In this document: positions 26,417-47,287 of the stretch, in pieces | How the letters are laid out: every line of letters starts with the position of its first letter | Numbering within the stretch: position 1 is the first letter of the stretch | Source: a virus | Reading direction: 5' to 3' (one strand) | Virus record (IMG/VR): IMGVR_UViG_3300030450_002208 | Coordinates: 1-49,984 of that record | Length of the DNA stretch: 49,984 nucleotides | The notes under the pieces: model-generated | Seen by the model: only the letters and a program-made list of their open reading frames with translations | Told to the model about the DNA's origin: nothing | Databases searched by the model: none | Program-made: the position numbers and the translations under genes

Positions 26417-29400
26417 ATGTCATTGTTTACCTCGCCTACAGTGGGGCAGCCTGAGGAGCAACAGCAGGCACAACAACAACAGTTTCAACCTCAGTGGGAT
26501 GAAAAAACACTTCGTAGATTAATTAAAGAATACGAAAAGAATCCTACTCATTATCCTGTTGAATTAAAAGAATCTATAAAGCAACATGCAGCGTATTATA
26601 ATATGCCTATGTATGAAGGTGAGTTTGATTTATTAGACGCCTTTAAACACGCAGGAGCAGGGTTTTTCGAAGGTTTTACAACCTTTAACCTTATGGAACC
26701 TGCTGATAACGAATATGAGCAAATATTCCGTAATTTAGGGCATTTAGCAGGATTTGCTCCAGGTCTATTAGCTGTTCCAGCTAGAGCATTAACAAAATTA
26801 GGCGTTAAAAGCAGTGCATTAAAAAGTTGGGCAAGAACAGCTTCTGCATTAAATGATAAATCAGTTCCTATGGCTGGTGCTAAATGGTTAACAGGTAAGG
26901 CTAAGAATATAGTACAGCCAGCTATTAAAGCAGCTGGGTTGCATAGAGGCGCCTCAACCAATGTTGCAGTTGATTTCTTAATGGGTAACAGAGCACGTCA
27001 TATGATGGAAGGGGCTTTCCACTTAGGAGCAGCTTCTGCAATTTCATCATGGCAGGGTGGTGTTGATGAGATGATGCATTCCTTTATGGGAGGTGCTGTT
27101 GCTGGTGGAGTATTTAGAGGAGTAGGTAACTTAAAATTTGCTGAAACAGAAACTGGCAATAAAGTTATTAGAGGTATGGCAGGCTCATTATTTATGGGGC
27201 TACCTTCTACTATGAGAGGAGCTACAACTCCAGAGCAAATCTATGAATACGTGTTAGGTGCGTATTTTGGTAAGGGAGAGAAGCCTTGGAGAGAAGCAAA
27301 GGCTCATAAGTTCGTTATGCAAGATATGCCTAAACGTGCACAAACTGACCCTAAATTTAGAAATTCAATGGACCCAGAGATTCATCCTAAATGGGAGGAT
27401 TTACCTCCTGAAGTACAGCCATTAGTAAAGAAATGGGCATTAAACGGTATTCCTGGAACTGAATTTAAAGGATATGGTCCTCCTGCCGTAAGAGAGTTTA
27501 TGAACTCCGTAGTCGCAGAAATTAACCCTGAGAAATTAAAAGAAATTCCTGCTGAGGTTGATGGCTTTCAAGTTGAGCAAGTTAAAGGTGAAGGGGGTGA
27601 ACCCCAACTAGTTATTAAAAAAGGTGTATTAGATAAGTATAAACATATACATATATCGGGAGCTGCAGAAGGACCAGATAGATGGTTCGCTGAAATAGCT
27701 TTTGAAAAAGGCATGCCTAGTATACATTATACCTTTGGTGCTGATATGGCTGATGCTCAATATGCTAAAGGATTTAAAAGGCCTTTACGTCAAACAGAAT
27801 TAGATGAAGCTAATCCTAAATTAGCTAGAGCAAGTGCACGTTTAGATAGACCTACAGAAAATTTATCTCAAAGACAATTAAATTATATATTACGTGATTG
27901 GTATCAAGTTAAGCACAGTAGTGCTATATATGCAGTCGCTCCAATAGAAACTGAAGGACCTTTGCGACATAAAGCTGTAAAGGGCGGTACTGGATGGACA
28001 GTTGAAATGGCTATTTCAAATAAGAAATCTCCTATATACGTATTTGATGAACCTACTACTAAATGGTGGAAATATGATAGAGGTGCTGGATTCTTTAAAC
28101 CTTTAAAGGGATTACCTCCTAAACCTCCTCGTCAATTTGCTGGTATTGGCTCTAGACAATCTACAGAGGTAGGTAAACAAGCTATAAGAGAATTTATGGA
28201 TGCTAAATTCCCAGAAGGAGTTAGATTAAAGCCAACTAAAGAACAGCTTAAAGAAATAGAAGATGCTGAGAAGACAGGTAAAAAAGTACTTAAACCTTAT
28301 CGAAAAGAGCTTGAAGTAGAATTAGATGAATTAAATATTAATATGGAGAATGTTAGAACGCAATTAATTGATATTTATAAAGAAGTTAATCCTAACTTTA
28401 ATCCAGAAAAAGGAATTCCAATCCCAACTAATGAGCTTTCAGCACAACATAAAGATGCTGTAATACGTCTAGAAAATGAAGGGGAAGCTATTAGAGGGCG
28501 TATGAAAGAGGTTTTAGAAGAGATTAATACAATAGATAATTCAGGTGAAATTCCTATGTTAGATGCTGCTACAGGCGAGATTATTGTAACTCCTGAAATA
28601 GCTAAAGAAATGACTTCAGAGGGAACTGGAGATGTTAGTCAAGGCAATGTTGGTACAAGAGTTAAAGCGACTATGCCTATATTAGAATTTGTTGATACTA
28701 AATTAAAAGGAATATGGGGAACTGCTCCTACTTCTTTTGAACGTAATCAAATGAAAGCAGACTTATCGGAGCAAATTGCAGCAAAGTTAATGGAAGTCTC
28801 TGTATCACGTAAAAACAAGTTTGATAATCAATCTGATAAATTTATTGAATGGATTAATGATTTTGCTATTAAGCAAGGTATCGAAGAAGGATTTGGATTA
28901 GACCAAGAGAGTAGAGGTACAGCAAGACAATGGATAGCAGCTCAAAATTGGAATAAGCAAGTTACACATTTTGGAGCAGGATGGGTTAAAGGCGGATTTG
29001 ATATTGTAGAACTTAATCCGATAAAAGATGATGCTGTTCCATTTAGTATGGGTGGAGAAAGTAAACAACAAAGAGAACCAATGAAAATCATCGAAAGAAT
29101 GATGAGGGAAGAGTTAGGCTTTTCTAAAAAAGATGGTGTAATTTTTGGAGTGTTAGACCATATCACAATGACTGAACCTGGTGGCAAGAAAGTTGATATG
29201 GAATTTGCTAGATTTGAAGACCACTTATATAATAAATATAGATTCGACGGAAGTACTAAGACTAACGAAGCAGCTCGTGCAAAAGCACAGATAAAAATGT
29301 ATGAATATAAATCACGTATTCAAAAGAAAATGTTAGAAAAAGGCATGCATTATTTCAGTGGTCGTGGTGAGTCTGATAGAATGTATTTTATTAAATTTAA

Positions 29401-32400
29401 TCCTTTAATGGAAAGATTGAAATCTTCAGAACGTAAACCTCTCTTGAATGAAATGTTAAGAATAGGTAAGCTAGGCGATGGCTATAGAGAGATGCGAAAG
29501 CGTTTTATTAGCGACTATACAGAGAAACAAAGAGGTTTAACAAGTCAGCAAGCAGGTGAATTATTTGATAAAGCTTATTTATCTAGCATTATTTACGACA
29601 TTCAACTAAATGGCTTTGAGCCTCAAAATACAGCACAACTAATGAAAGATGCTGCAAAATTCTTTAGTCCTGAATATGATATCATTAGCGAATCAAAAGC
29701 TTTTAATAAACGTTCTCAAGTATGGCATACAAATGGTTATCCTGGAGATGCTGTATTTATAGCTAATAGAATGGCTAAAGGGGCTAATGATTTATATTTT
29801 GATTCAGCAGCTCCCACAGACCAATTAAATCTTTTTGCAGATAAAAAGATTGGTAAATTGAATTATATCCTTGTAAATGATTTGCCAGAAGAGATTAGAA
29901 GTAAATCTCCTAAATGGTTTACAGAGGTAATAAGAAAATCTACTGAATTACCTGAGCATGTAGATGGAGCCATTATAACACGTGATGATGTTATACGTAT
30001 TAATAATGAAGATGCTGGTATGCCTGAGTTATTTACTCAAAACAAATCATTTATAGCATCTCGTAAAGAGAAAGATACTAATGGAAATCCTTTAGGAGGA
30101 CTTTTAGGTAAATATATGATGCATCCTGCTGGTAAAAGATTAAGTAAATATATGGAAGATTATGTAGACCCGAAGACAGGTGTAAAAGGTTTACACTATA
30201 TTATGATGGGTTCTTCAGTAAAACAAAGAGGAATGCGTGAAGCAGGGGATTATTCAATAGGTCGTAACAAGCTTATGGTAAAAGATGCGCCTATGTATCA
30301 TCTTAATCCACATGATATTTACTATAATTACTCAGTTAAAAATCACAGTGAAATGTTAAGCGATGCAAGGATTGCTAAGCAATTGCTGTCTGCATTTTTA
30401 GATAATCAAAAAAGCCCCGTGCCAAAAGAAATTATTGATGATATGTTGTCAACTATTATGGGAAGAAGATTTAATGGCACAGAGTATGGTAATAAGCTGT
30501 TTTCTGAGTTCAAAACATCTACTTTAGCGCAGAAACAACAAAGTATCGATAAATTGATGAAAAATTGGAATAAACTCTCTATACCAGATATTTTAGAAGG
30601 AATACGTAATCCTGATATGGAGATGTTTGCTGAACGTGCTTTTGAACGAATGATATTTGGATATCGTAAAGAATTAAATGAATCTCTTGAGCGAGGAGAA
30701 TTAACTGAATCAGAATTTGCTCTAGAAAAAGCAAGATTAGAAGCTACTGAGAAAGATTATGATAGAAAGATTAAATCAGCTGAATTAGCTAAAAAACAAG
30801 CTAAAAAAGATGGTGTTGATTTAAATACTTTAGGGGTATATTTTGACCCTGCAGTACGAAGATATAGAGAGCAAGTAATTAGAAGCTTTGTTGTGAGAGA
30901 GATTACAAAGCCTAGAACTAGTAATTCAGCTGTTGCTAGAATGCGTCCTTATGATAAAGCATTACAAATGGATTTAGATGGTTCTAATCCTAATCTTAAG
31001 CGTCTTGATAAAGATGAGTTTATGTTTGTTTTAGACAATGCTTATAAAGATATGAAGATTAAAACAGACAATAATCACTTAGGTAAGGATGGAGAAATTA
31101 CATTAGGCGAATTATGGAAATTAAAAGAACAAAAAAGTGAACTACTGAAAAATGTAGATATTAATAATCTACTTAGAGCAACTGTATTACGTGTTCCTAT
31201 GTCATCAATGTCTGGAGCACGTGTTTTAAATTTCGGAGGATTTAGTGGTAGAGAGGGTCATGGAGTACTTTTACATAGTCGTGTAATGCGTAACTTGGGA
31301 GGTGCTGATTTAGATGCAGATGAAGCATGGGTATTCTTTGGTGGTGAAAAACATGGTTTTAAAAAGAAATGGCAAGATGCTATTGATGCTAATCGTAAAG
31401 AGTTTTTCACTGAAGATGGCAAATATTTTATCGATGCTAAAGAGTCGGAAATTCCTAAAGAAATACGTGAATCTTTAGGTTTAAGGAATAAGCCTAAAAT
31501 TAAAACTATGCGTGATTTTTTAACTGTATCAGGTGAATTTACAGAAGCAGAAAAGAATCTTTTAAAGTCTCGTGGAGCTATGTATTCTTTACATGAACGA
31601 ATGCGTCAAGCAGATGCTGCAATTCGAGGTAGAAATCAATTAGGTGAAGCTGCTGTAAACCCTAAGCAATTAATGATGTTAACACATTCTATGGTGTCTA
31701 ATAACAAAGACCAAAATGAATGGATTGATGTTAGCCGACCAGTATGGGGTCCTAATAAATTACCTGGAGAACCACCTGAGATTATTAATTACAGATTGCT
31801 TGTTAAAGCAAGAACTAGTGATAAATGGAGGAATTGGGCTCGCCAAATAGGTAGAGCTCAAATCGAGTTTTCTGCTGACCCTATGGATGAATTAGGAATG
31901 AAATCAACTGATTTTTGGTTTAAAGAATTATTTAGGGCTCATTTTAATGTCGTTAAGGTGATTGATAAGGATAATCCAAAACGTAAATTACCAGCATATG
32001 AATTTAAGAATCTAACATATGATAAGTTAAAAGCTTATGAATTAAAGCGTGGTACTTATAATGTTGTGCGTGAAATGAATAATGCTTTTTGGGGCAAGGA
32101 TTGGTCAACTAATCGAGGGTTTCTACCTTCTGAGATTAAGGACTTAGCTTCAAAAGTATATCAATTGTCAGAAAATCAGCAACACAATTTCTTAAGTCAA
32201 GTTGGAATAAAATTAGGTTCTGTAAATTTCTCAGATAACTTATTAACACGTGTTGATTATAATAAAGTAACAGATATGTATAATCAGTATAATGAAATAG
32301 TTAAGAAATACGATGGAATCAAGAAATTACTTGGAAGAAGTAGTTTATCATCGCCAATGTGGGTAGGTATTAGAAAGACTTTGCGACCTTTAGGCAAGGA

Positions 32401-35400
32401 TAGTGATGCTACATTATTAAATCCAGACCATATTATTTCTATAGCTAATGATATGAGGGCATTTAAAAAGGCAGTAACTATCAATGGTGATTGGAAAAGT
32501 ATTAATAAAAAACATGGTTTAAAAATTGATGAAATATTATTAGGAGAAGCAAGGGGAGGTAAATTTTATTCTTTAGATACTTCGGTTAAAGCAAGAATTA
32601 AGATATTATCTAAAATTGCTCGAACTGCAGAAGAGTATTTTATTCAAAACGTAGGTGATATGGCATCTTTTGATGTTATACAAAGATTAGTACGTAAAAT
32701 GGAGACTGATGGTGAAACTATTGATAATGCAAAAATTGCTGATTTGCATAAATTTGCAGAAAAATTAAAGAAAGATAATTACTTATCAGCTAAAGTGCGT
32801 AAACAAACAGCTGCATTTGATTGGTCGGATTTAAGCCCTAAACATTTAAAAATGATGAAAGCTGCTGCAGAAGACCCGGACTTCCAAAGATTAGGACTTC
32901 TTCCTCCTGGTGTAAAAATATTACAACAAAAACCTAGTGCTTATTCAGATAGAATGAAAGTAGATAGGGCGATTAGAAAGAAAAAAGAAAATTTAACTAC
33001 TAATGAGAAGATGTTTTTGGATTATTTAATATTAGGAACATTTAGAAGAGGAGCATACAATAAGATTGTTGAGCTTGAAGCAGCATTAGAAGCTGAAGGA
33101 GAACTTCCAAGTGCATTGGCAGACGTATTAAGTAATTTAAAGCGTGATGCATCTAAAACTAATTTAGGTAGACTTGGTATTAATTCAAAAGCTGTTAATG
33201 ATAAATCACTTACTGATTTTACTCGCTCTCAATTAGAGCACTTAGATACATCGTGGAAAGCTCCAAAGCAAGAAGAATTAAATAATGCACATAAAAAGAT
33301 TGATAATGTAAAAGAGACTATTAAAAGAGATAATAATGGCGATAAAATTATGGAAGATGAATTTGAGCCATGGGTCAATACTACTACTGGGTATGAAGGT
33401 TTGAAGGAAGGTGTACAGATTACTGATGTTCCAGAAGCATATAGAGCACGTGTTATTGAATTAGTGACTAATATTAAAGGAGAGAATCCTAAATTTAGAA
33501 AGAATCTTAATGAAGTTATTAGAAGTCTTATTGGTAAAGATTTAAATGCTTTAAATGCCAATGATTATACTATTTTAAACAATTGGTTTAAAGAAGTTAA
33601 AAGAGGAACTTGGTTGCAAAGATTCTTTAGCAAAGAGGGTGTTACAGAATTATCAAAACGTCATCATTGGTTCTTCCCAAAAACAGTTAATAGAGAATTA
33701 ATGCGTGACGAAATTAGATTAATGGAAGAAGAGGGTTTATATCTTACTAACACAGGGGAAGTATTAACAGGTAAATTAATGCGTCCTACTCATTTTGTAG
33801 ATATGGCTCAAAGTTGGATAGCTCGTACCTTAGACTCAGCTTCAGAGGTTAGTGATAAGTGGGTTAATGAAATTAAAGAGCGTCTTTTATTTGTTAATTC
33901 CGTTAAAGAGGGAGATGTATTACGTCAAATTGCTGTTAGAGAACGTGAGTTAGGCTATTTTACAGAATATATTCCATCTTCATTACAAAGAAAGCTTACT
34001 GTAGATGAGAGAGTAGCATTACGTGAATATCAGGCTCGTCATGATGAGTTAATAAAACATCATTCTGATAAGTTAGATAAAATTTATACTATTGAAGTAG
34101 ATGGTAAGCGAGTAGAATTAACTGGAAAAGAGTTTATTAAGCGTATTAATAATGAATATACAACTTTCTTTGAAAAAATGCATAGATTTATTATTGGTGA
34201 AAAGACAGATGAATCTGGTATTAATCACGCTCTTGAACAATATAGGGTTGGATGGCGTGATAGAAAGAATCAAAAAGGTGCTATTTATAAACATGAACAA
34301 TTTATCGAAGATTTAAGAGCTGATTGGAGAAAGGGTAAAAAGCTAGTAACAGATATTGGGATTGATGGATTGCGTGCTATGGCCCGCTCTATGATGATTG
34401 AAATGTCAGGTAAACATCCTGATTTTCAAAAAGAATTAAAAATGTATGATGTTAATACAACTGGTAAAATGCCTTTTAAACACTATTTCCCTCATATGTT
34501 CTTCAACAAGAAGATTGCTGGTGAAGGTATGAAAAAACATTGGGACGCTTTAGCTAAAATGGATTGGAAAGAATTTCATCCTACTGATAGAAAGAAAGCT
34601 GAAAAAATTAGAACACGTAAAATGAATGGTTTAATTTGGAAAAATCATACATTAACAGGTGACTGGACATTTGAAGATGCCGAAGAATGGAAGGTATTTG
34701 ACCAACGTATTCAAGAGTTTGCTGAAGGTAAAGCAAATAAAAGTGATAAAGTCGATTGGTTTAGTAATAGAAGTAAAGCTGGTTCTATGCATAGTAGGAA
34801 AGGTCATATACCAGGCTGGTCTGTAGATGCTACTGTTGTTGAGGGCTATTCTCGTGCCTTAGTCAATACGTATCATAGACAATTAGCTCAAATCTTGGGT
34901 CGTGATATTATTAATAGAATGAATAAAATGGGTGACCATTATGTTGAAAATAAAGCTGGGCGTAAAGTTAAGGTAAAAGGTAAATGGAATAAAGACCAAG
35001 TTGAGGCTTGGCAGAAATTTATGAAGCTATATATTCAAGATGCTATTGGTAATCCTTCTGTAATTCCAGAGGATTATTATAAAGACCCTAAAATGAAGTT
35101 GCAAGGAACTCCTTATGCCTGGTGGGCTGATAATAGAGTAGAGAAGAAGATTAATAAAGTATTAGATAATTTTGGACTATCTTCAAAAGATTTGCCAAAA
35201 GAATTACGTGGTGTTGATATGCAACAGTTGAGACATTGGTCTAATCTTGAAGCTCAATATGAAATGGCTTCTCTGTTAGCTCATCCTAAATCTATGGTTA
35301 CTAATATATTTGGTGGTACTATGCATACAGTTGAATCTGCGGGTTGGAGAAGCTGGAAGAATGCACGTAATATTGACTGGTTAAAACAAAATATTAATTC

Positions 35401-36427
35401 CAAATGGAACTCAATGGAAGATGTTATGAAGTTTGTGGTGCGTTCCGGTGTTTATCCTGAATATATGATATATGAAGCGGGTTTAAATAAGGAGATGAAA
35501 CAAGCACGTAATAAAGAATTTATTGAAGATATTGCTAAGCGATTAACTAAAGACCCTGAAATGAAGGATACTACTTTAAAAGAGATTGCTAAACAATACG
35601 GTGTTAAAGATAGAGTTGTGCAATTTGCTGCTAAGTTTATGACTGTACCTGAGCGTATGATACGTCGTGATGCTTTTATGTCTCACTATATACAAGCTTG
35701 GGAGCGTTGGGGTGGCGCTATTAAAGACCCAGAACATCCATTTTTAATAGAGCAAGCTAAAAAAGGTGTTAGAGCTACGCAATTCCTATATAACGCTCCA
35801 TTTAGACCTGCATTTGCGCGTACTGCACTTGGTAAAGTTATGACACGTTTCCAATTATGGTCTTGGAATGCTGTTCGTTTTAGGAATGATGTGGCTAGAC
35901 AAGCTAAAATCTATGGAATCACTCCTGGCACTGAAGCTTATGAACGATATGCAAGAATGATGCAAATGGATGTTTTTGTATTTGCTTTAGCTAATATGTT
36001 TGCTTATTCATTATTTGAGACTGCATTACCTGCTCCATGGAATTGGTTACAAGATACTGCTGATTGGATATTTGGTAATGAAGAAGAGCGTGATAGAGCT
36101 TTCTTTGGGCAATGGCCGAAACAACTTGCTCCGTTGCAGATGGTAACTCCTCCCATCTTACGGCTGTTGCCCTCATCTATGCGAGCTATGGTAGATGATG
36201 ATTGGTCTAAAGTTGGTAAATATTATGTATGGACTATGTTCCCGTTTGGAAGAATGGCGAGAGATGTGGTTGGTCCTGGTAATTTAATTGAGAATCCTAT
36301 TAGAGTCTTAGAGAAGACTACTGGATTTCCTTTGCTACAACTTCAGAAAAAAGGTACTGAATATAAGAAAGAGCAAGAAGAAGGAACTAGAATCCCTTCT
36401 CCTTCTCCAGGTAAAAGTATATTTTAA
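26417..36427 (+). CDS. Giant polyvalent protein with double-psi-barrel RNA polymerase signatures, 3336 aa
   Basis: One ORF fills a fifth of the genome. The N-terminus (about 80-290) is Gly/Ala-rich and amphipathic. Residues about 405-600 look like a SLOG (YpsA/YspA-type) domain (HISGAAEGPDRW, SPIYVFDEPTTKWW, AGIGSRQSTE). A first barrel-like region has VDGAIITRDD (Asp1183) with Lys1210 and Lys1232. A second has VLRVPMSSMSG (Arg1592), then His1620 and GGADLDADEAW (Asp1631, 1633, 1635), matching the R..P...H...ADFDGD order of beta-prime RNA polymerase and the DxDxD loop of crAss-like phage polymerases. The remaining 1,500 residues are charged and helical, with a hydrophobic patch near 3190. It ends the virion operon, so packaging and ejection are likely. 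No T7-type polymerase motif was noticed. Confidence 0.75.
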   Translation: MSLFTSPTVGQPEEQQQAQQQQFQPQWDEKTLRRLIKEYEKNPTHYPVELKESIKQHAAYYNMPMYEGEFDLLDAFKHAGAGFFEGFTTFNLMEPADNEYEQIFRNLGHLAGFAPGLLAVPARALTKLGVKSSALKSWARTASALNDKSVPMAGAKWLTGKAKNIVQPAIKAAGLHRGASTNVAVDFLMGNRARHMMEGAFHLGAASAISSWQGGVDEMMHSFMGGAVAGGVFRGVGNLKFAETETGNKVIRGMAGSLFMGLPSTMRGATTPEQIYEYVLGAYFGKGEKPWREAKAHKFVMQDMPKRAQTDPKFRNSMDPEIHPKWEDLPPEVQPLVKKWALNGIPGTEFKGYGPPAVREFMNSVVAEINPEKLKEIPAEVDGFQVEQVKGEGGEPQLVIKKGVLDKYKHIHISGAAEGPDRWFAEIAFEKGMPSIHYTFGADMADAQYAKGFKRPLRQTELDEANPKLARASARLDRPTENLSQRQLNYILRDWYQVKHSSAIYAVAPIETEGPLRHKAVKGGTGWTVEMAISNKKSPIYVFDEPTTKWWKYDRGAGFFKPLKGLPPKPPRQFAGIGSRQSTEVGKQAIREFMDAKFPEGVRLKPTKEQLKEIEDAEKTGKKVLKPYRKELEVELDELNINMENVRTQLIDIYKEVNPNFNPEKGIPIPTNELSAQHKDAVIRLENEGEAIRGRMKEVLEEINTIDNSGEIPMLDAATGEIIVTPEIAKEMTSEGTGDVSQGNVGTRVKATMPILEFVDTKLKGIWGTAPTSFERNQMKADLSEQIAAKLMEVSVSRKNKFDNQSDKFIEWINDFAIKQGIEEGFGLDQESRGTARQWIAAQNWNKQVTHFGAGWVKGGFDIVELNPIKDDAVPFSMGGESKQQREPMKIIERMMREELGFSKKDGVIFGVLDHITMTEPGGKKVDMEFARFEDHLYNKYRFDGSTKTNEAARAKAQIKMYEYKSRIQKKMLEKGMHYFSGRGESDRMYFIKFNPLMERLKSSERKPLLNEMLRIGKLGDGYREMRKRFISDYTEKQRGLTSQQAGELFDKAYLSSIIYDIQLNGFEPQNTAQLMKDAAKFFSPEYDIISESKAFNKRSQVWHTNGYPGDAVFIANRMAKGANDLYFDSAAPTDQLNLFADKKIGKLNYILVNDLPEEIRSKSPKWFTEVIRKSTELPEHVDGAIITRDDVIRINNEDAGMPELFTQNKSFIASRKEKDTNGNPLGGLLGKYMMHPAGKRLSKYMEDYVDPKTGVKGLHYIMMGSSVKQRGMREAGDYSIGRNKLMVKDAPMYHLNPHDIYYNYSVKNHSEMLSDARIAKQLLSAFLDNQKSPVPKEIIDDMLSTIMGRRFNGTEYGNKLFSEFKTSTLAQKQQSIDKLMKNWNKLSIPDILEGIRNPDMEMFAERAFERMIFGYRKELNESLERGELTESEFALEKARLEATEKDYDRKIKSAELAKKQAKKDGVDLNTLGVYFDPAVRRYREQVIRSFVVREITKPRTSNSAVARMRPYDKALQMDLDGSNPNLKRLDKDEFMFVLDNAYKDMKIKTDNNHLGKDGEITLGELWKLKEQKSELLKNVDINNLLRATVLRVPMSSMSGARVLNFGGFSGREGHGVLLHSRVMRNLGGADLDADEAWVFFGGEKHGFKKKWQDAIDANRKEFFTEDGKYFIDAKESEIPKEIRESLGLRNKPKIKTMRDFLTVSGEFTEAEKNLLKSRGAMYSLHERMRQADAAIRGRNQLGEAAVNPKQLMMLTHSMVSNNKDQNEWIDVSRPVWGPNKLPGEPPEIINYRLLVKARTSDKWRNWARQIGRAQIEFSADPMDELGMKSTDFWFKELFRAHFNVVKVIDKDNPKRKLPAYEFKNLTYDKLKAYELKRGTYNVVREMNNAFWGKDWSTNRGFLPSEIKDLASKVYQLSENQQHNFLSQVGIKLGSVNFSDNLLTRVDYNKVTDMYNQYNEIVKKYDGIKKLLGRSSLSSPMWVGIRKTLRPLGKDSDATLLNPDHIISIANDMRAFKKAVTINGDWKSINKKHGLKIDEILLGEARGGKFYSLDTSVKARIKILSKIARTAEEYFIQNVGDMASFDVIQRLVRKMETDGETIDNAKIADLHKFAEKLKKDNYLSAKVRKQTAAFDWSDLSPKHLKMMKAAAEDPDFQRLGLLPPGVKILQQKPSAYSDRMKVDRAIRKKKENLTTNEKMFLDYLILGTFRRGAYNKIVELEAALEAEGELPSALADVLSNLKRDASKTNLGRLGINSKAVNDKSLTDFTRSQLEHLDTSWKAPKQEELNNAHKKIDNVKETIKRDNNGDKIMEDEFEPWVNTTTGYEGLKEGVQITDVPEAYRARVIELVTNIKGENPKFRKNLNEVIRSLIGKDLNALNANDYTILNNWFKEVKRGTWLQRFFSKEGVTELSKRHHWFFPKTVNRELMRDEIRLMEEEGLYLTNTGEVLTGKLMRPTHFVDMAQSWIARTLDSASEVSDKWVNEIKERLLFVNSVKEGDVLRQIAVRERELGYFTEYIPSSLQRKLTVDERVALREYQARHDELIKHHSDKLDKIYTIEVDGKRVELTGKEFIKRINNEYTTFFEKMHRFIIGEKTDESGINHALEQYRVGWRDRKNQKGAIYKHEQFIEDLRADWRKGKKLVTDIGIDGLRAMARSMMIEMSGKHPDFQKELKMYDVNTTGKMPFKHYFPHMFFNKKIAGEGMKKHWDALAKMDWKEFHPTDRKKAEKIRTRKMNGLIWKNHTLTGDWTFEDAEEWKVFDQRIQEFAEGKANKSDKVDWFSNRSKAGSMHSRKGHIPGWSVDATVVEGYSRALVNTYHRQLAQILGRDIINRMNKMGDHYVENKAGRKVKVKGKWNKDQVEAWQKFMKLYIQDAIGNPSVIPEDYYKDPKMKLQGTPYAWWADNRVEKKINKVLDNFGLSSKDLPKELRGVDMQQLRHWSNLEAQYEMASLLAHPKSMVTNIFGGTMHTVESAGWRSWKNARNIDWLKQNINSKWNSMEDVMKFVVRSGVYPEYMIYEAGLNKEMKQARNKEFIEDIAKRLTKDPEMKDTTLKEIAKQYGVKDRVVQFAAKFMTVPERMIRRDAFMSHYIQAWERWGGAIKDPEHPFLIEQAKKGVRATQFLYNAPFRPAFARTALGKVMTRFQLWSWNAVRFRNDVARQAKIYGITPGTEAYERYARMMQMDVFVFALANMFAYSLFETALPAPWNWLQDTADWIFGNEEERDRAFFGQWPKQLAPLQMVTPPILRLLPSSMRAMVDDDWSKVGKYYVWTMFPFGRMARDVVGPGNLIENPIRVLEKTTGFPLLQLQKKGTEYKKEQEEGTRIPSPSPGKSIF

Positions 36428-40053: not shown

Positions 40054-40237
40054 GACGCTCAAATGATTTGTTACTACTGTATGTGAAAGATATTGAAGTA
40101 AAGAATCTCCATACTCCAACTCTAAATGTTACAGTGCTCCATTCATTGTCTTTGGCAAATTGAAATTTAAATATATTTAATATTCTCATTGCAAAAGCAT
40201 CTTTATTAAATGATATATCTATTAGTCCTCTAGTCAT
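40040..40237 (-). CDS. Hypothetical small protein, 65 aa
   Basis: It starts inside the end of the primase-helicase gene and overlaps the HNH gene by 14 bases. The sequence is aromatic and strand-like (FKFQFAKDNEWSTVTFRVGV, then RFFTSISFTYSS). Overlap with both neighbours supports translation. No family is recognised. Confidence 0.5.
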   Translation of the reverse strand: MTRGLIDISFNKDAFAMRILNIFKFQFAKDNEWSTVTFRVGVWRFFTSISFTYSSNKSFERHGIS

Positions 40238-42005
40238 ATGTTCTCCTAAGTCTAAAACTATCTGTCCATTCTACATCGCACTCCCAATTGGAGTCGCCGT
40301 CTGTATTTTTAAGCATTTTTATTTTCTTCTTAGGGACATCTGCTTGTCCATCAACTGAAATAACTTTTCTACTAGCATTCTCTATGGCTCCCGAGCCTTT
40401 AGCTGCATATAATGACAGCTCATCTGATTTACTATGTTCTCTGCCAACTTGAGATACTTGTATAATGATTACATCCATGTTTACTGCAATATTGGACAAG
40501 CTATGAGAAATATATTTGATTTTCTCATGTTCGCTTCTTCCATTACCACGTGTATCTATTAAATCGATATAATCTACTATTACTAGTGATGGTTGTAACT
40601 CTTTTATCTTTTGTTGTATCTGGTCAATTGTAGGCGATATTGTTTGAAATGTGATATGAGCTAAATCATCTTTATGTTTCTCAAATACACTTTCAAAATT
40701 ACTATTTACTTCATCCTTATTTAATCCTGATACAATCTGTAATCCACGTCTATGCATATACCAATCTGCTAATTCTAATGATAAGAATAATGTTGGAATT
40801 TGCCATTCTGGATTAATTGAGTCACTTGCAAAGTCTACTCCTAATGCTAAATTTTGAACAAATGTACTTTTGTTTGAACCTGTTCGTCCAAATACAGTAA
40901 TTAGTTCTCCCGGATATATATCACAATCAATATGATTCATACCCAGCATTTGAGATAGATTAATTGTTCTACCACTAAAATCGGTAGTTAATCTTTCTTT
41001 TAATTTAGATTGAAGCGTTTCTACTGATGCTGTTTCTATCATGTAATCTTTGCGCTGGAAATGTATACACTTTGTTTTACAATGCTTTTCCATTATCTCA
41101 TCTTTACATCCATATTGATAACCTGCATTATAAACACGTTCTACTATTCCATTTAGGACTTCTTTATTTAACTGATTCTGATTCCATTCTGATAATACAG
41201 CTTTTGCATAATAGCTAGGTACACCATTTCTTCTTAAATGGCTAACAATTCTCATTGCTGTTGTATTTCTACAACCGTCTTGAGGTCCTTGCATGAGCAT
41301 CTGCTGTACACAAGGAACAATTGTTAATGGTTCTCTAACTTTATTCAAGTTATCTATTTTTGGAACAGAAGTTTGCACGTATTCTGATAATTCCCCTTCT
41401 CCTAATAAAGATTGATACGGGTAGTCTACTCTTGGATTTTTAGCCATCTCTAGAATAGACTCTGGTTTTTCATTCATTATCTCTTTTATAGTTAAAGGGA
41501 TTTTATACAGTCCTGTTTTTTGATTTAGAGTATGCTGTACTCTATAAAGAGCAGTACGAATATATACCATATAATCAGCAAGCGGAAACAACTTCTTCAT
41601 AGTATTCTTCACAATGTATGGTAAATCGGAAGAAGTTGCAAATTCAAATGTATCATTTGATAATACAATATGGTATCCACTACCTGAAAAGTATGATTGT
41701 ATGCCTTTATGAGTACAGCCTAACTCTTCTAAGTCAAATATAATACTACGTGCTAAGTTGAGAGTATGCTCATCTGTATTATCTTGTTTATCAATATCAA
41801 TTAATACTTTATCTATACTACGTTCTCCATAATAGTTCTTTAACGTATTGCCATTTTTTCTAGCGAATATCACGGCTTGTTCGTCATAAGTATATGCAGA
41901 GCGATATAAAGTACTATTCATATCAATATACTGAAATAATTCATTGATTGGAACTAAGGTACCACGATTAAATGGCGTTCCTTGTGCTATCTCAACATAT
42001 TTCAT
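40230..42005 (-). CDS. Primase-helicase fusion (AEP primase + DnaB/RecA-like helicase), 591 aa
   Basis: The N-terminal half looks like an archaeo-eukaryotic-type primase. It has VLIDIDKQD (Asp70, Asp72), YFSGSGYHIVLS (His112), and an R..HTLN.KTGLYKIPL segment. A PriCT-like region follows (PCVQQMLMQGPQDGCRN, then a Cys300/Cys309/Cys313 cluster). The C-terminal half is a replicative-helicase-type ATPase with Walker A FGRTGSNKST (Lys379) and Walker B SLVIVDYIDLI (Asp478). It would unwind and prime phage DNA. No phage DNA polymerase was found, so the host polymerase is probably recruited. Confidence 0.85.
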   Translation of the reverse strand: MKYVEIAQGTPFNRGTLVPINELFQYIDMNSTLYRSAYTYDEQAVIFARKNGNTLKNYYGERSIDKVLIDIDKQDNTDEHTLNLARSIIFDLEELGCTHKGIQSYFSGSGYHIVLSNDTFEFATSSDLPYIVKNTMKKLFPLADYMVYIRTALYRVQHTLNQKTGLYKIPLTIKEIMNEKPESILEMAKNPRVDYPYQSLLGEGELSEYVQTSVPKIDNLNKVREPLTIVPCVQQMLMQGPQDGCRNTTAMRIVSHLRRNGVPSYYAKAVLSEWNQNQLNKEVLNGIVERVYNAGYQYGCKDEIMEKHCKTKCIHFQRKDYMIETASVETLQSKLKERLTTDFSGRTINLSQMLGMNHIDCDIYPGELITVFGRTGSNKSTFVQNLALGVDFASDSINPEWQIPTLFLSLELADWYMHRRGLQIVSGLNKDEVNSNFESVFEKHKDDLAHITFQTISPTIDQIQQKIKELQPSLVIVDYIDLIDTRGNGRSEHEKIKYISHSLSNIAVNMDVIIIQVSQVGREHSKSDELSLYAAKGSGAIENASRKVISVDGQADVPKKKIKMLKNTDGDSNWECDVEWTDSFRLRRTYD

Positions 42006-42614: not shown

Positions 42615-43286
42615 TTATTTATTCTCCTTTTTATATATGTTTTTCCAATCAAATGGTAATATTTTACCACGTAAATGAGGACTTCTTGAACCTGCTTCTA
42701 AAGCATCGTCCGATTTAAATGAAATCATTAACTTTTCATCTTCGTCTCTAAATACGTAGCCTATTGCATCACTATCTGACATTATCATGTTCTTTAAGCG
42801 TCCAGTAATATCAAGACTTTCAGGCTCTACTGTTGCCTGTCCTTCTACTACTGCTTTAGCTGTCTTTCTATGACCAACTATAATAAGATGGTCGCATACG
42901 TCTTTAAACGCATGTATAGTATTCATAACTTTATCACGTGCTAATCCCCATCCTTTTCCGAAAGGTAAATCAGCTAAAGCTTGAACACTATTTTCTTCAC
43001 ATACTGCTGCTTCTGCCCATTGTACTACTTTATCGATAGTATCAATAGCTATATATTTAAACTCGTGTCCTTCACGTGCTTGTTTTAATATATCTATTAA
43101 TTCTTTACGATTATTAGCATTAAGTATATGACCCTCTATCATATTAGAACCAGACTCTGTATCAATGATAAGACAATTGTCTAGACTGGATAACATTGTA
43201 GTTTTACCTATTTTAGGGGGACCATACATTAATAATGTACTTGGATTTTGAGAAACAGCTTTTCTCTTGGCTACTTTAAGTACCAT
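42615..43286 (-). CDS. Sak4-like RecA-fold ATPase, 223 aa
   Basis: The ATG at 43286 has GAGGAGT upstream, better than the in-frame start at 43319. The N-terminus carries Walker A MYGPPKIGKTTM (Lys28) and CLIIDTESGS, then IAIDTIDKVVQWAE as Walker B region and HLIIVGHRK as sensor strand. This is the pattern of phage Sak4/AAA_24 ATPases linked to single-strand annealing. It is preceded by a structured intergenic element. Confidence 0.8.
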   Translation of the reverse strand: MVLKVAKRKAVSQNPSTLLMYGPPKIGKTTMLSSLDNCLIIDTESGSNMIEGHILNANNRKELIDILKQAREGHEFKYIAIDTIDKVVQWAEAAVCEENSVQALADLPFGKGWGLARDKVMNTIHAFKDVCDHLIIVGHRKTAKAVVEGQATVEPESLDITGRLKNMIMSDSDAIGYVFRDEDEKLMISFKSDDALEAGSRSPHLRGKILPFDWKNIYKKENK

Positions 43287-43304
43287 TTTACTCCTCTTCT
43301 GAAA

Positions 43305-43397
43305 TATCAAGAGTCTCACATATGTTCTGCCTACGTTATCGCGTTGAACGCTAAGTGTCTTCTCGGGACTTCTGAACCCAGCTATTGACTCTTGATA
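43305..43397 (-). ncRNA. Structured intergenic element 2
   Basis: An 11 bp stem (43305-43315 with 43387-43397) closes a 71-base loop. The loop contains a CGTT/AACG mini-stem around TCGCG (43339-43343), a GGG/CCC hairpin and an ACATATGT palindrome. It ends about 7 bases upstream of the ribosome site of the Sak4-like gene. The GC content is visibly higher than the flanks. Confidence 0.5.
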
Positions 43398-43437: not shown

Positions 43438-44094
43438 TTATTCTGTTTTTCCAAGAACTAATCCTGGAAATGTAAAGAAGAATTGCTTTGGACATGGTTC
43501 ATTATTTAACGTTTTCTTTATAGCATTTGCTATAAAAGCTCCACTCATATTTGAACAGTAGGAAGTCGCTTTAGCGTTACATGGTTCATCTTCAGCGTTT
43601 TCATCTGAATACCAAGTGTCTTTGTATTGCTTAAGAGTTGGATTCTTCAGAGTGAACTGATGATATTCCTCCGCACCCATACGACCATCTATCAATAGAT
43701 GAGGCTTATTAGGTCTCTTCAAGGCCGCTTCTGCTGCTTCTAAGCGACTATCCATACTGTCAAATCCCAAAACTACTATGTCACCTTCTCCTAAGGGTTT
43801 AACAAATTCAGTAAATCTACCAAATTGTTCATGAGCACGTATTTCTGGGTTTATATTGTTTAAATGTTCACGTAATGCTACTACTTTAGGTTTTTGTATA
43901 TCCTGATATATATAGTAACTTACGCCTACATTTTGAACCTCAACTTTATCTAAATCATAGAGCACAAATTCATTTGCTCCCATTCTAGCAAGTTGAGTAG
44001 CTGCGGAACTACCAATAGCTCCGCAACCTAGAATATGAAAGATTTTATTGTCAAAATCTTCTATTAATCCTGAACTTCTTTCATTAATTCGCAT
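43438..44094 (-). CDS. ThiF/E1-like ubiquitin-activating enzyme, 218 aa
   Basis: The Rossmann adenylation core is clear. HILGCGAIGSSAATQLARMG gives the GxGxxG loop (Gly23-Gly28), followed by FVLYDLDKVEVQNVG (Asp47, Asn55) and DIQKPKVVALREHL. It should adenylate the C-terminal glycine of a ubiquitin-like protein. The length fits a single adenylation domain without extra modules. Cysteines in EPCNAKATSYCSN are candidates for the thioester site. The usual NxxRQ arginine is not evident (NVGVSYY). It overlaps the JAB gene by 11 bases and has a strong GGAGGT site. Confidence 0.9.
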   Translation of the reverse strand: MRINERSSGLIEDFDNKIFHILGCGAIGSSAATQLARMGANEFVLYDLDKVEVQNVGVSYYIYQDIQKPKVVALREHLNNINPEIRAHEQFGRFTEFVKPLGEGDIVVLGFDSMDSRLEAAEAALKRPNKPHLLIDGRMGAEEYHQFTLKNPTLKQYKDTWYSDENAEDEPCNAKATSYCSNMSGAFIANAIKKTLNNEPCPKQFFFTFPGLVLGKTE

Positions 44095-45001
44095 TTACAT
44101 TACCTCCTTCGATGTTTTCAAAGAAGTCAATAGGATTACTATATAAGCATTCATCTTCTATTGATTCTTTACTACCTTTGTATAATTTATCACTGATTTT
44201 TATATTATATTGCTTAAGCTTTTCATTTAAAGATTTAACACCTTTACGAAATGCTTTTACTTTAATACTACCATCAGTTAAATCATCTGATAATTTATCT
44301 ACTTGTTCTACACATTGTTCAAAGAAGTCTATTGGTACTCCTGTCATTTCAAGCTCATCAGTATCATTGAGCCATCCATAATTATTATAACCATTATATA
44401 TTCTTGGTTGAGTCCATAAATTACCTTGAGTAGCTTTTATACCATGTCCACCATATGATGTAATAACACGTGTTTCTTTGGTACATAGTTCTTCTACTTC
44501 TTTGTCAATTGCATTGTCAACATCGTATTCTTCTTGAAGGAAGTTTAATTCTACATTTTCTTCGTGCATAAATGGACTAAAGAATTGAATACGTAACTTA
44601 TATTCTTTCTTTAGATTTACGACTAAAGATAATGTCCAGTCATTAGCAGGATGGCTTAATATAGTAGCATCATCAGTACCTGACCAAAATGCTCCCATTG
44701 TATGATGACTATGCCACCAACAATGTCTTACATTATTACCATGTTTACCTATCATCTTAGAATAGTGAATAGCTAATTGTTCTCCATCTAATTCACAGTT
44801 TCCTGATGATATTTCTTGTTTTAAAATTACTGGGTCTTCTAATATATAATCCCCGTCTGCATCTTCTAAAACAACTAGCTGACCACCTATTTCAGACTTA
44901 TATTGCCTATAAGCTGATTCAGCATATGCTATAACTTTATTCCAGTTCTCGCGTGATATCCAGAACTTTTTATTTTTGTTTTGTTCAGGTTTAGCTGTCA
45001 T
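44084..45001 (-). CDS. JAB/JAMM isopeptidase (deubiquitinase-like), 305 aa
   Basis: The zinc-protease motif is complete: Glu37 in SEIGGQLVV, then HCWWHSHHTMGAFWSGTDD with His97, His99, Ser107 and Asp110 in exact H-x-H-x7-S-x2-D spacing. It should cleave a ubiquitin-like protein, either to expose its GG end or to remove it from targets. The C-terminal 150 residues are helical and of unknown role. It overlaps the genes on both sides by 11 bases, so E2-like, JAB and E1 proteins are translated together. Confidence 0.92.
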   Translation of the reverse strand: MTAKPEQNKNKKFWISRENWNKVIAYAESAYRQYKSEIGGQLVVLEDADGDYILEDPVILKQEISSGNCELDGEQLAIHYSKMIGKHGNNVRHCWWHSHHTMGAFWSGTDDATILSHPANDWTLSLVVNLKKEYKLRIQFFSPFMHEENVELNFLQEEYDVDNAIDKEVEELCTKETRVITSYGGHGIKATQGNLWTQPRIYNGYNNYGWLNDTDELEMTGVPIDFFEQCVEQVDKLSDDLTDGSIKVKAFRKGVKSLNEKLKQYNIKISDKLYKGSKESIEDECLYSNPIDFFENIEGGNVNAN

Positions 45002-46805
45002 ATCTAATACCTTCCTTTCTGCCTTTTAGCATGTTAATATATGTCCAATATTCACTTCTTGTATTTATATATCCATTAGCAAATAGCCAAGAATAGTGAG
45101 TATTTTCTATATCTCTTGTGGTTAATATTTTAATTGCCTGATTATAATTCAAGCCTTTAGTTTTTGAAGTTAACTCATCAAACATTGCTCCATTATCATT
45201 GTATATTTTACCTAATGCAAAATTTCTTTCACATACTTCAAATATTTTAATGATATTGTCTCCCGTTGGACCAGATATTATAAAGCTATCAAGATATTCA
45301 TAACAATCAGTATAATCAACTGTGCTAGTATTTGAATTAAATATACGCATTAAGTTTACTATTGTTAATTTCTTTGATTTATAGAAATAATATAAATCAG
45401 CAAATATCTCATATACTTGTTTAGTATCTACTTCATTAGATAAGTGTATACATAGCTTATTATATGCTTGAATCCAATTTTCATCAACTTCATCCATCCA
45501 TGATACTTTATCTACATTTAGCTTTTCATAAATCTTGCATTTATCTTTAATAGCACATCCTGTACAAAACTTTTCAGCAAATGCTATTTTAGATTCATGA
45601 TTATCGCATGATTTAATATGAGATTTACATGGCTCATTACTACCTGATACTAAAGCTCTAGTAACATCATTCCATTCTTCACGTACTCCAAATGATAATT
45701 GATTGAGTCCATTTAATGGAGATGTAGTTCCTGCTGAGAATGAATTAGCCCATATATATAGATGTGATTTTAATAACTCTATATTACCTGATAATAAAGC
45801 ATTGAATATATCGTTAGTTAATTCACCTAAACATATGTTGCCATTACTATAACTATTATAGTAACTTAGAGCATTTGTTGTACTTCTTCCTCTGTATATA
45901 AATGGATGCTGAGTTCCTTGATATAAGGGATATCCTTGTGCTACAGTTCCAATAAACTCAGTTTTTACTGTATGTTGCTTTTTTGTTATTCTACGATAAT
46001 TAGTTAATAAAGTAACAAAATCTATTGTAAATGTAACAACAATATCCCCATAAGGAAGTTTAGCGTATTCTATACTCATAGCTGAATTAGTTAAATTAAT
46101 AACTACATCTTTAAGTAATACGCTTATATTAACAAACCATTTGCGTGGATTAGGTTCTTTAGAAGAAGTTGTTAATTGTTGATAATAATCATCTAAATCA
46201 TTATACATTTCACGATTATAAGAGCCTATTACTTTATTATCTTGATTAATTATAGGATATAATCTTGGTACACAACCACCATATGTTCCTGCATAATCAC
46301 TATTATGATAACCTCTTAAACGTCTTCCAAAGTAAGGTACTGGGCTAATAGATACTTCAACATTATTATATTCTTCTAGGAACTTTTGTAATACTTCATT
46401 TAAAAGCTCTTTTGATTTATCTAAATCATCATCATTAAATAGCTCTATACCTTCTTTTCTATAATTATATAGCATGCTATCTAATTTCTCTAGATTATCT
46501 GAAAAGTTATTATAATTCCATTGATTCCTTTCTAATAGTTTATGAATACTATTAGCACCTCTTCTTTTCTTCCAGTGTGGATACAGTACATTATCTACAC
46601 TAGCTTTTATTTTATCATATGTACCTGGTTGCCATCTTGAACTTTTAGTAGCAACTAAATCCATATCATATCTTTCATTAAAATTTGCTAATTTCTCAGC
46701 AAATTCTGCATATCCTGATAACTCTTTATAATCTAAATGATTTAAACTCAATTCAGGTAATTCAGATGTTTCAGTCTTTTCGTTAAATTCGAATGAATAT
46801 TGCAT
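44991..46805 (-). CDS. Putative E2-like conjugating protein, 604 aa
   Basis: The key site is QHPFIYRG (His300-Pro301), followed by SNGNICLGELTNDIF (Cys325), a hydrophobic helix, W353 and TTSPLNGL. This is the order of ubiquitin E2 active sites (HPN...G.ICL...W......PLN) and of prokaryotic E2 proteins with HPxV...G.ICLG. Strands around 220-275 (VVINLTN, DIVVTFTIDF) could form the UBC sheet. The spacing from HP to Cys is about 25, longer than in eukaryotic E2. A Cys cluster (FCTGCAIKDKCKIY) follows near 414, perhaps a zinc or Fe-S site. The first 150 residues are helical. Context with JAB, E1 and a beta-grasp gene supports the call. Confidence 0.6.
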   Translation of the reverse strand: MQYSFEFNEKTETSELPELSLNHLDYKELSGYAEFAEKLANFNERYDMDLVATKSSRWQPGTYDKIKASVDNVLYPHWKKRRGANSIHKLLERNQWNYNNFSDNLEKLDSMLYNYRKEGIELFNDDDLDKSKELLNEVLQKFLEEYNNVEVSISPVPYFGRRLRGYHNSDYAGTYGGCVPRLYPIINQDNKVIGSYNREMYNDLDDYYQQLTTSSKEPNPRKWFVNISVLLKDVVINLTNSAMSIEYAKLPYGDIVVTFTIDFVTLLTNYRRITKKQHTVKTEFIGTVAQGYPLYQGTQHPFIYRGRSTTNALSYYNSYSNGNICLGELTNDIFNALLSGNIELLKSHLYIWANSFSAGTTSPLNGLNQLSFGVREEWNDVTRALVSGSNEPCKSHIKSCDNHESKIAFAEKFCTGCAIKDKCKIYEKLNVDKVSWMDEVDENWIQAYNKLCIHLSNEVDTKQVYEIFADLYYFYKSKKLTIVNLMRIFNSNTSTVDYTDCYEYLDSFIISGPTGDNIIKIFEVCERNFALGKIYNDNGAMFDELTSKTKGLNYNQAIKILTTRDIENTHYSWLFANGYINTRSEYWTYINMLKGRKEGIRYDS

Positions 46806-46822
46806 TTTTATTTACCTCTTTT

Positions 46823-46889
46823 TATATAAGGGGAGATTGTATCACACATCTCGCTGTTTGAGGAAAGGATAAGTATCCCCCCTTATGTA
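46823..46889 (-). ncRNA. Structured intergenic element 5
   Basis: An 11 bp stem with one G-T pair (46823-46833 with 46879-46889, core ATAAGGGG/CCCCTTAT) closes a 45-base loop that contains CAGCGAG on the minus strand. It lies immediately upstream of the ribosome site of the E2-like gene. It resembles the other boundary elements in size and placement. Confidence 0.5.
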
Positions 46890-46897
46890 TTCTAGTA

Positions 46898-47026
46898 TTA
46901 ATCAAATAAGCTGATTAGGAATTGAGGAAGTGACTTGACGTCTATTGCTAATTTCCCGATAAATCGGCCCATAGCTTCACCGTACTGTGCTTTTTCTCTA
47001 CCTAAAAGAACCTTATTTGTACTCAA
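46898..47026 (-). CDS. Small ORF between the beta-grasp and E2-like genes, 42 aa
   Basis: The likely start is TTG at 47026; no good ribosome site is at proper distance. The product reads like protein (STNKVLLGREKAQYGEAM, then a helix ending FLISLFD). It lies in the same frame as the beta-grasp gene, directly after its TAA plus three codons. It is thus either a separate small protein of the cassette or a readthrough extension. Function unknown. Confidence 0.5.
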   Translation of the reverse strand: MSTNKVLLGREKAQYGEAMGRFIGKLAIDVKSLPQFLISLFD

Positions 47027-47035
47027 TGTGATAAT

Positions 47036-47287
47036 TTACTGATTACCACCTCTTTTATTGCCTGCAACATGTACTACTCTGTCATCTGCTGCTACTGGTG
47101 TTGCATCTGAAGCAATTACATCATTAACAGTAACGTGTCCTGTTAATCCTAGTTCTGCTTTTAATGCACCAACTGTATTAGCTGCGTGCTCTTCTGTTGC
47201 TGCCATTACAACTCTAGTTGGTTCTAGAGTCATACTTCCATTCATTAGTTGTATCACCACTTCAGTGATTACTGTTTCTGTAGCCAT
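47036..47287 (-). CDS. Putative ubiquitin-like beta-grasp protein ending GG-NQ, 83 aa
   Basis: The order strand (EVVIQLMNGS), strand (PTRVVMAAT), helix (TVGALKAELGLTG), strand (HVTVNDVIA), strand (VAADDRVVHVAG) and a KRGG end fits the ThiS/MoaD/ubiquitin beta-grasp fold. In that fold a VxVN strand precedes a DGDxV turn. Two residues (Asn-Gln) follow the double glycine, so a protease such as the neighbouring JAB protein would be needed to free the GG terminus. It is the first cassette gene, with an AAAGGTAGG site. The fold is inferred from pattern, not search. Confidence 0.6.
   Translation of the reverse strand: MATETVITEVVIQLMNGSMTLEPTRVVMAATEEHAANTVGALKAELGLTGHVTVNDVIASDATPVAADDRVVHVAGNKRGGNQ

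Follow-up and report, generated by a model that had tools for sequence, protein, structure and literature searches.

The window analysed here is the whole stretch of 49,984 nucleotides of the IMG/VR virus record IMGVR_UViG_3300030450_002208, a linear contig whose gene content (large terminase, portal protein, major head protein, exonuclease and HNH proteins) is that of a tailed phage. Four genes of its minus strand, read leftward, encode successively a ubiquitin-like (Ubl) modifier precursor of 83 amino acids (47036-47287), a candidate E2-like (UBC-type) conjugating enzyme of 604 amino acids (44991-46805), a JAB/JAMM metallo-isopeptidase of 305 amino acids (44084-45001) and an E1-like adenylating enzyme of 218 amino acids with a single ThiF domain (43438-44094). 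This row lies upstream of a Sak4 gene on the same strand. An earlier note, made from the letters of the window, had described these four main open reading frames (ORFs) and had counted a fifth among them (46898-47026, 42 amino acids). The four main ORFs are present as described, whereas a coding role for the fifth was rejected: its reading frame is not preserved in relatives, and the gap that it occupies is non-coding and contains an RNA hairpin. The genes overlap by 11 bp at both the E2/JAB and the JAB/E1 junctions, which suggests that E2, JAB and E1 are translationally coupled. We propose, with a probability of about three in four, that the phage carries in this row a complete, reversible and self-contained pathway of Ubl conjugation and deconjugation, which would be used during infection.

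When viral contigs were first scanned with the E1 sequence, 43 loci were detected, and the profile version of the scan recovered 355 stretches encoding an E1 relative, 80 of which were fetched. The four protein profiles were searched against all reading frames of 108 sequences, and gene order was counted over the 29 distinct loci (window included) whose sequence continues for 5 kb or more upstream of E1. The Ubl, E2-like, JAB and E1 genes were found in identical order and on the same strand in 28 of these 29 loci; the sole exception (L091) is devoid of a recognisable Ubl only. The gene order that the earlier note had proposed to look for in related phages is thus recurrent, and JAB and E1 do not occur there without their partners. 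The ratios of non-synonymous to synonymous substitutions (dN/dS), computed pairwise between the window and two relatives, rise from 0.13-0.14 (E1) through 0.18-0.22 (Ubl) and 0.30-0.33 (JAB) to 0.37-0.43 (E2-like gene), and the four genes are under purifying selection. Since the order is kept in 28 of 29 loci under such selection, the recurrence of the set far exceeds chance. The fastest divergence is that of the E2-like protein (55%, where the E1 of this phage pair has 91%) and is greatest at residues 121-222 and beyond residue 431, which fits a target-facing part whose target surface is changing. The viruses bearing the cassette are probably marine viruses of bacteria.

The product of 43438-44094 can be assigned with certainty to the ThiF family from its match to the Pfam ThiF model (E=1.2e-21), in agreement with the adenylation domain announced by the earlier note; it contains the sequence GCGAIGS. 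The PDB matches of the E1 profile include MccB, UBA5, ThiF, MoeB, Cap2 and BubCD. The residues Cys172 (43579-43581), Lys175, Thr177 and Tyr179, which form the motif C-x2-K-x-T-x-Y, are invariant, including in a crAss-like relative. Conjugation pathways have an E1 with an ATP-binding Rossmann fold and a catalytic cysteine; the window E1 has the ThiF fold and an invariant cysteine, Cys172, which would be the catalytic residue and is likely the thioester site. The JAB protein displays the complete motif that had been claimed for it, composed of Glu37, His97-Ser-His99-x7-Ser107 and x2-Asp110, and none of its JAMM residues varies among 17 relatives. Taken alone, the window JAB remains below the Pfam cutoff (0.0015); the Prok-JAB model is matched by all of the 17 relatives, with a best value of 2.8e-5, and the JAB profile displays weak matches in the PDB with CSN5 and Rpn11-like proteins.

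The C-terminus of the 83-residue protein reads RGGNQ, i.e. Gly80-Gly81 (47045-47050) followed by Asn-Gln. The Gly-Gly pair is invariant across the 29 aligned Ubl members. Most relatives have one to five residues after it, five terminate exactly at the pair (L085, L093, L101, L103 and L104) and six carry long extensions of about 60 to more than 100 residues (L023, L075, L079, L082, L092 and L095). An invariant Gly-Gly with tails of varied length is the pattern expected of precursors trimmed by a JAB protease. The extensions of L075, L079 and L082, all above 100 residues, resemble one another and have similar end motifs; a fused cargo or a propeptide is possible. The AlphaFold model of the window protein (predicted local distance difference test, pLDDT, 77) has the order beta-beta-alpha-beta and a disordered Gly-Gly tail. 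Its top PDB neighbours are nearly all proteins of the ubiquitin fold, NEDD8, MoaD, SAMP1, ThiS and TGS, each of them a weak match (E of about 0.03 or weaker). The beta-grasp fold that the earlier note had proposed to check by structure prediction is therefore found in the model, and the 83-residue protein has the features of a conjugation-pathway modifier, a beta-grasp with a C-terminal glycine.

The best profile matches of the Ubl are with ThiS and MoaD: the window protein matches ThiS weakly (E=0.054), 13 of the 29 relatives do so as well (7e-4 at best), and the Ubl profile matches the Escherichia coli MoaD at 0.047. Together with the single ThiF-type domain of the E1, these matches are in line with a sulfur-carrier system, in which a ThiS/MoaD-type Ubl, thiocarboxylated at its C-terminus by the E1, would supply the sulfur for thiolation of tRNA, nucleotides or a cofactor, and JAB would serve only to process the precursor. 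We consider this explanation improbable, though the best placed of the alternatives. The E2-like protein is always present, with an invariant cysteine; neither a rhodanese nor a cysteine desulfurase was seen on inspection of the ORF listing of the window; and the E1 is devoid of the paired Cys-X2-Cys zinc motifs that are usual in ThiF and MoeB.

In the 604-residue protein, the E2-type motif noticed earlier is read directly as His300-Pro301 followed by S-N-G-N-I-C-L-G, which contains Cys325 (45831-45833). The corresponding sequence in the eukaryotic UBE2D is S-N-G-S-I-C-L-D. Pro301, Cys325, Trp352 and Pro363 are invariant in the 43 E2-like relatives, and the downstream cysteines Cys393, Cys414, Cys417 and Cys423 are each kept in 42 of them. 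The spacing from His to Cys varies widely among relatives, from 14 to 45 residues. The AlphaFold model (pLDDT 84) comprises a helix at residues 125-143 and a strand at 149-154, then an insert, a pair of long strands (224-239 and 246-262), a helix, another strand (285-293), the HP motif, Cys325 and two helices; the order of the elements in this model is UBC-like, with insertions. Searched with Foldseek against viral models, it recovers six proteins with E values under 1e-13 and, beyond these, a protein of the CrAss-like virus ctDAq1 (8e-3), a protein of 420 residues (0.06) and one of cr128_1 (0.19, 435 residues). With respect to the earlier E2 call, the protein thus has the motif, the invariant cysteine and a UBC-like order of elements, and no UBC match in the PDB; on the motifs and the modelled element order, the 604-residue protein is likely an E2, with a putative UBC fold.

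Several observations weigh against the proposed pathway. No UBC match was obtained by sequence for the 604-residue protein, and the Foldseek search of the whole model against the PDB returned noise only, without any UBC. The residue before Pro301 is Phe or Tyr instead of His in about 10 of the 43 relatives, and the spacing between HP and Cys is long in the window protein (25). The link with replication comes from the gene neighbourhood only. Finally, a relative of 54.5 kb whose terminase is 72% identical (G008; L122 14000-17500) is devoid of E1 and JAB, which shows that the lineage can do without the cassette.

The first of these observations would also suit a 604-residue protein that is not an E2 and represents instead the main substrate, a scaffold or an effector, modified by direct transfer from the E1, with Ubl, JAB and E1 cooperating. 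The protein is large and fast-evolving, and its conserved four-cysteine cluster suggests a metal site. We find this possibility slightly less probable than a sulfur carrier. The HP...GN-C-G residues lie, as they do in UBC, behind the run of strands and ahead of a helix; a very divergent protein occupying the same slot (L116-type cassettes) carries HPHIQSGKPCWGG, in which the spacing from H to C is the canonical 9; and the motif NGNICWGGF of L069 represents an intermediate form.

With regard to known systems, the earlier note had likened the order of the row to that of BilABCD, an ISG15-like operon of bacteria directed against phages. The resemblance lies in the gene order Ubl, E2, JAB, E1, in the JAMM protease (BilC trims its Ubl, a role that is only predicted for the complete JAMM of the window JAB) and in the Ubl tail after the C-terminal glycine. 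Three Bil features, taken from PMC11354881, are absent. BilA contains two tandem Ubl domains, in contrast to the single beta-grasp of the window; the catalytic CEHH motif of BilB (Cys, then Glu at +6, His at +8 and His at +13) is replaced by Asn331, Ile333 and Leu338 after Cys325; and BilD joins a Cys domain to two adenylation domains, of which one is inactive and the other active, whereas the window E1 has one ThiF domain. No Glu or His is conserved after the cysteine in the 43 E2-like relatives. The window set differs further in the length of its E2 and its four-cysteine cluster, and in being phage-borne and next to replication genes. The gene order was therefore rightly recognised, and membership in the Bil family was rejected on account of the single Ubl, the missing CEHH and an E1 that lacks both an inactive half and a Cys domain.

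The PRTRC system of plasmids (A, B, C and ThiF) also brings together, on a mobile element, components of the JAB, E2, Ubl and ThiF types. The match of PRTRC_A with the window JAB is limited to the 17-residue JAMM stretch, that of PRTRC_ThiF with the E1 is far below the cutoff, and no match was obtained with PRTRC B or C; with trivial motif matches only and none above the cutoff, this assignment was discarded. Type II CBASS (Cap2/Cap3) and Bub share with the window an E1 domain of one superfamily. The architecture is different, in that Cap2 of CBASS is an E1-E2 fusion, and CBASS is not known to have a stand-alone Ubl gene. Type II CBASS was rejected as well, since E1 and E2 are separate genes in the window and no CD-NTase-like gene was seen by inspection of its ORF listing. 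A further precedent is given by the bacterial Ubl/E1/E2/JAB operons predicted by Iyer et al. in 2006, some of them on integrative and conjugative elements and plasmids (PMC1779556), which would form a Ubl relay with the same kinds of enzymes. In the E2 of their group 6d the Cys is followed by a conserved His, which the window E2 lacks, and their phage examples, lambdoid and T1 tail genes, comprise Ubl and JAB only (PMC1779556). As hosts deploy Bil and type II CBASS against phages (PMC11354881, PMC10097602) and the window E1 has Cap2 and BubCD among its distant relatives, the cassette might be a counter-defence that sabotages these host systems, with a phage Ubl, E2 or JAB that competes with, strips or misdirects host Ubls, but we hold this to be the least probable alternative, given that an own Ubl and E1 in a complete set exceed the needs of an inhibitor, that the genes are located beside replication genes, and that 84,980 prokaryote genomes, searched with two short patterns that do not prove absence, yielded no close relative and only one distant archaeal ThiF.

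Counterparts of the set were detected in a second group of tailed phages, the crAss-like phages (Steigviridae) and the Flavobacterium phages Fpv. Among 50,697 phage records searched with tblastn, 78 contain E1 relatives and 74 contain relatives of the protein in the E2 slot, the latter detected with a crAss-like query; the organism tallies of both are concordant except for four odd records. The order Ubl-like, E2-slot, JAB, E1 was observed in the inspected genomes of crAss001, cr111, cr85, cr128, cr126, bajarodcaudo, Dulem 41 and Fpv1. In the cultured crAss001 (L132) the row corresponds to gp79-gp76, and cognate rows are present in its relatives (L045, L047 and L133-L138). In GenBank these genes are given names such as 'thiamine biosynthesis' protein and 'metalloprotease'. 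In crAss-like records the E1 is followed by a further protein and a uracil-DNA glycosylase, with a DNA primase upstream, and the cassettes adjoin primase, uracil-DNA glycosylase and Sak4. The first protein consists of a Ubl-like N-terminal domain, then KSG-A (crAss-like) or KSGG (Fpv1) and a long extension.

With hhalign, the families of both groups align with a probability of 100% for E1 and 97.6% for JAB, so that E1 and JAB are clearly homologous as judged from their profiles; for the Ubl (E 2.5e-4, probability 43%) the link is suggestive. The profile comparison of the window E2 with the crAss-like E2-slot proteins is not significant (E 0.13-0.43), and the alignment still sets HP over HSH and C-L-G over C-L/T-G. 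The Foldseek matches mentioned above connect the two, ctDAq1 and cr128_1 being equated with the E2-slot proteins by organism and protein length and the 420-residue protein with that of Fpv1 by length only. Both groups share gene order, homologous E1 and JAB, Foldseek-matched E2-slot proteins and a replication neighbourhood, and differ in the HSH...C-x-G motif of the crAss-like/Fpv E2-slot proteins and in the ends of their Ubls, KSG(A) or KSGG with a long C-terminal extension. In the literature searched, mostly without subscription journals, we found neither a report of a full Ubl/E2/JAB/E1 set in phages nor a Ubl-pathway reading of the crAss-like and Fpv genes. In Fpv1 (L131 4397-5146), an ORF of the opposite strand that resembles a homing endonuclease of the LAGLIDADG type interrupts the JAB gene, immediately ahead of the catalytic HSH motif; no group I intron was detected there with Rfam.

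The surroundings of the cassette are, as had been claimed, replication genes. Downstream on the minus strand are encoded a Sak4-like single-stranded DNA annealing protein (42615-43319; PHROG 124, 2.4e-35) and a DnaB-like replicative helicase with a primase-like N-terminal half (40230-42005; PHROG 19, 7.7e-31). Of the 89 loci whose sequence covers this place, counted without de-duplication, 70 have Sak4 after E1; a strict coupling was rejected, no Sak4 being detected at this place in the other 19. In related loci, helicase relatives usually follow E1 at a distance of about 1-3 kb. Directly 5' of the E2 gene, between Ubl and E2, a conserved RNA hairpin (46826-46886, minus strand) has 15 consensus pairs with compensatory changes in 7 (8 sequences), a single-sequence z-score of only -1.55 and no matching family in Rfam; it may control the expression of E2, perhaps setting the ratio of Ubl to enzyme. 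Elsewhere in the window, a giant ORF of the plus strand (26417-36427; 3,336 amino acids) possibly encodes an injected virion protein.

In the same phage lineage, L116 (17-2922) contains at the same place a very divergent E2/JAB/E1 set, a type for which few relatives turned up. In one of these (L140 1859-3608), an ORF of 78 amino acids ending with NKSG, perhaps a Ubl, directly precedes E2. The absence from G008 and the replacement in L116 indicate that the cassette is an exchangeable module. G008, which has the same terminase and helicase, is also devoid of Sak4 and has other genes upstream of the helicase, including an ERF-like annealing protein identified by inspection. In G002, the contig of L014 and L109, the E1 gene is cut at both contig ends (2-628 and 47212-47520), which suggests the assembly of a circular or permuted genome.

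The conjugation pathway that we favour is built on direct results, namely gene content and order, conservation of catalytic-type residues, the fold prediction of the Ubl and purifying selection. The identity of the E2, the target and the timing are inferred, as is each chemical step, for which we draw on family knowledge and the conserved residues; the course would be the following. The JAB protease would trim off the Asn-Gln that follows Gly81; the E1, with its single domain, would adenylate the C-terminal glycine and then take the Ubl as a thioester, probably on Cys172; and the Ubl would pass to Cys325 of the E2-like protein. The variable regions of the latter (between strands 1 and 2, and in the helical C-terminal third) and its four-cysteine cluster would choose the target, likely without a separate E3, and JAB would also remove the tag. 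The cassette would act during infection on phage or host proteins of replication and recombination: its usual position beside the replicative helicase is a weak indication that the targets are replication proteins, or factors of the host that act on these. It is tempting, and at present speculative, to extend this proposal to both groups of tailed phages, each of which would run its own Ubl code inside the infected bacterium, putting the tag on replication or recombination proteins of phage or host and taking it off again to control genome replication, by analogy with SUMO and ubiquitin in eukaryotes.

Ubl conjugation in bacteria has so far been known mainly as a host defence against phages. 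If phages own a complete and conserved pathway, present in hundreds of viral contigs as well as in culturable crAss-like phages of the human gut, viruses may use this chemistry for themselves. The 'thiamine biosynthesis ThiF' and 'metalloprotease' annotations of crAss001 receive a new reading as parts of a Ubl pathway, and this cultured phage makes the question of Ubl tagging by phages testable.

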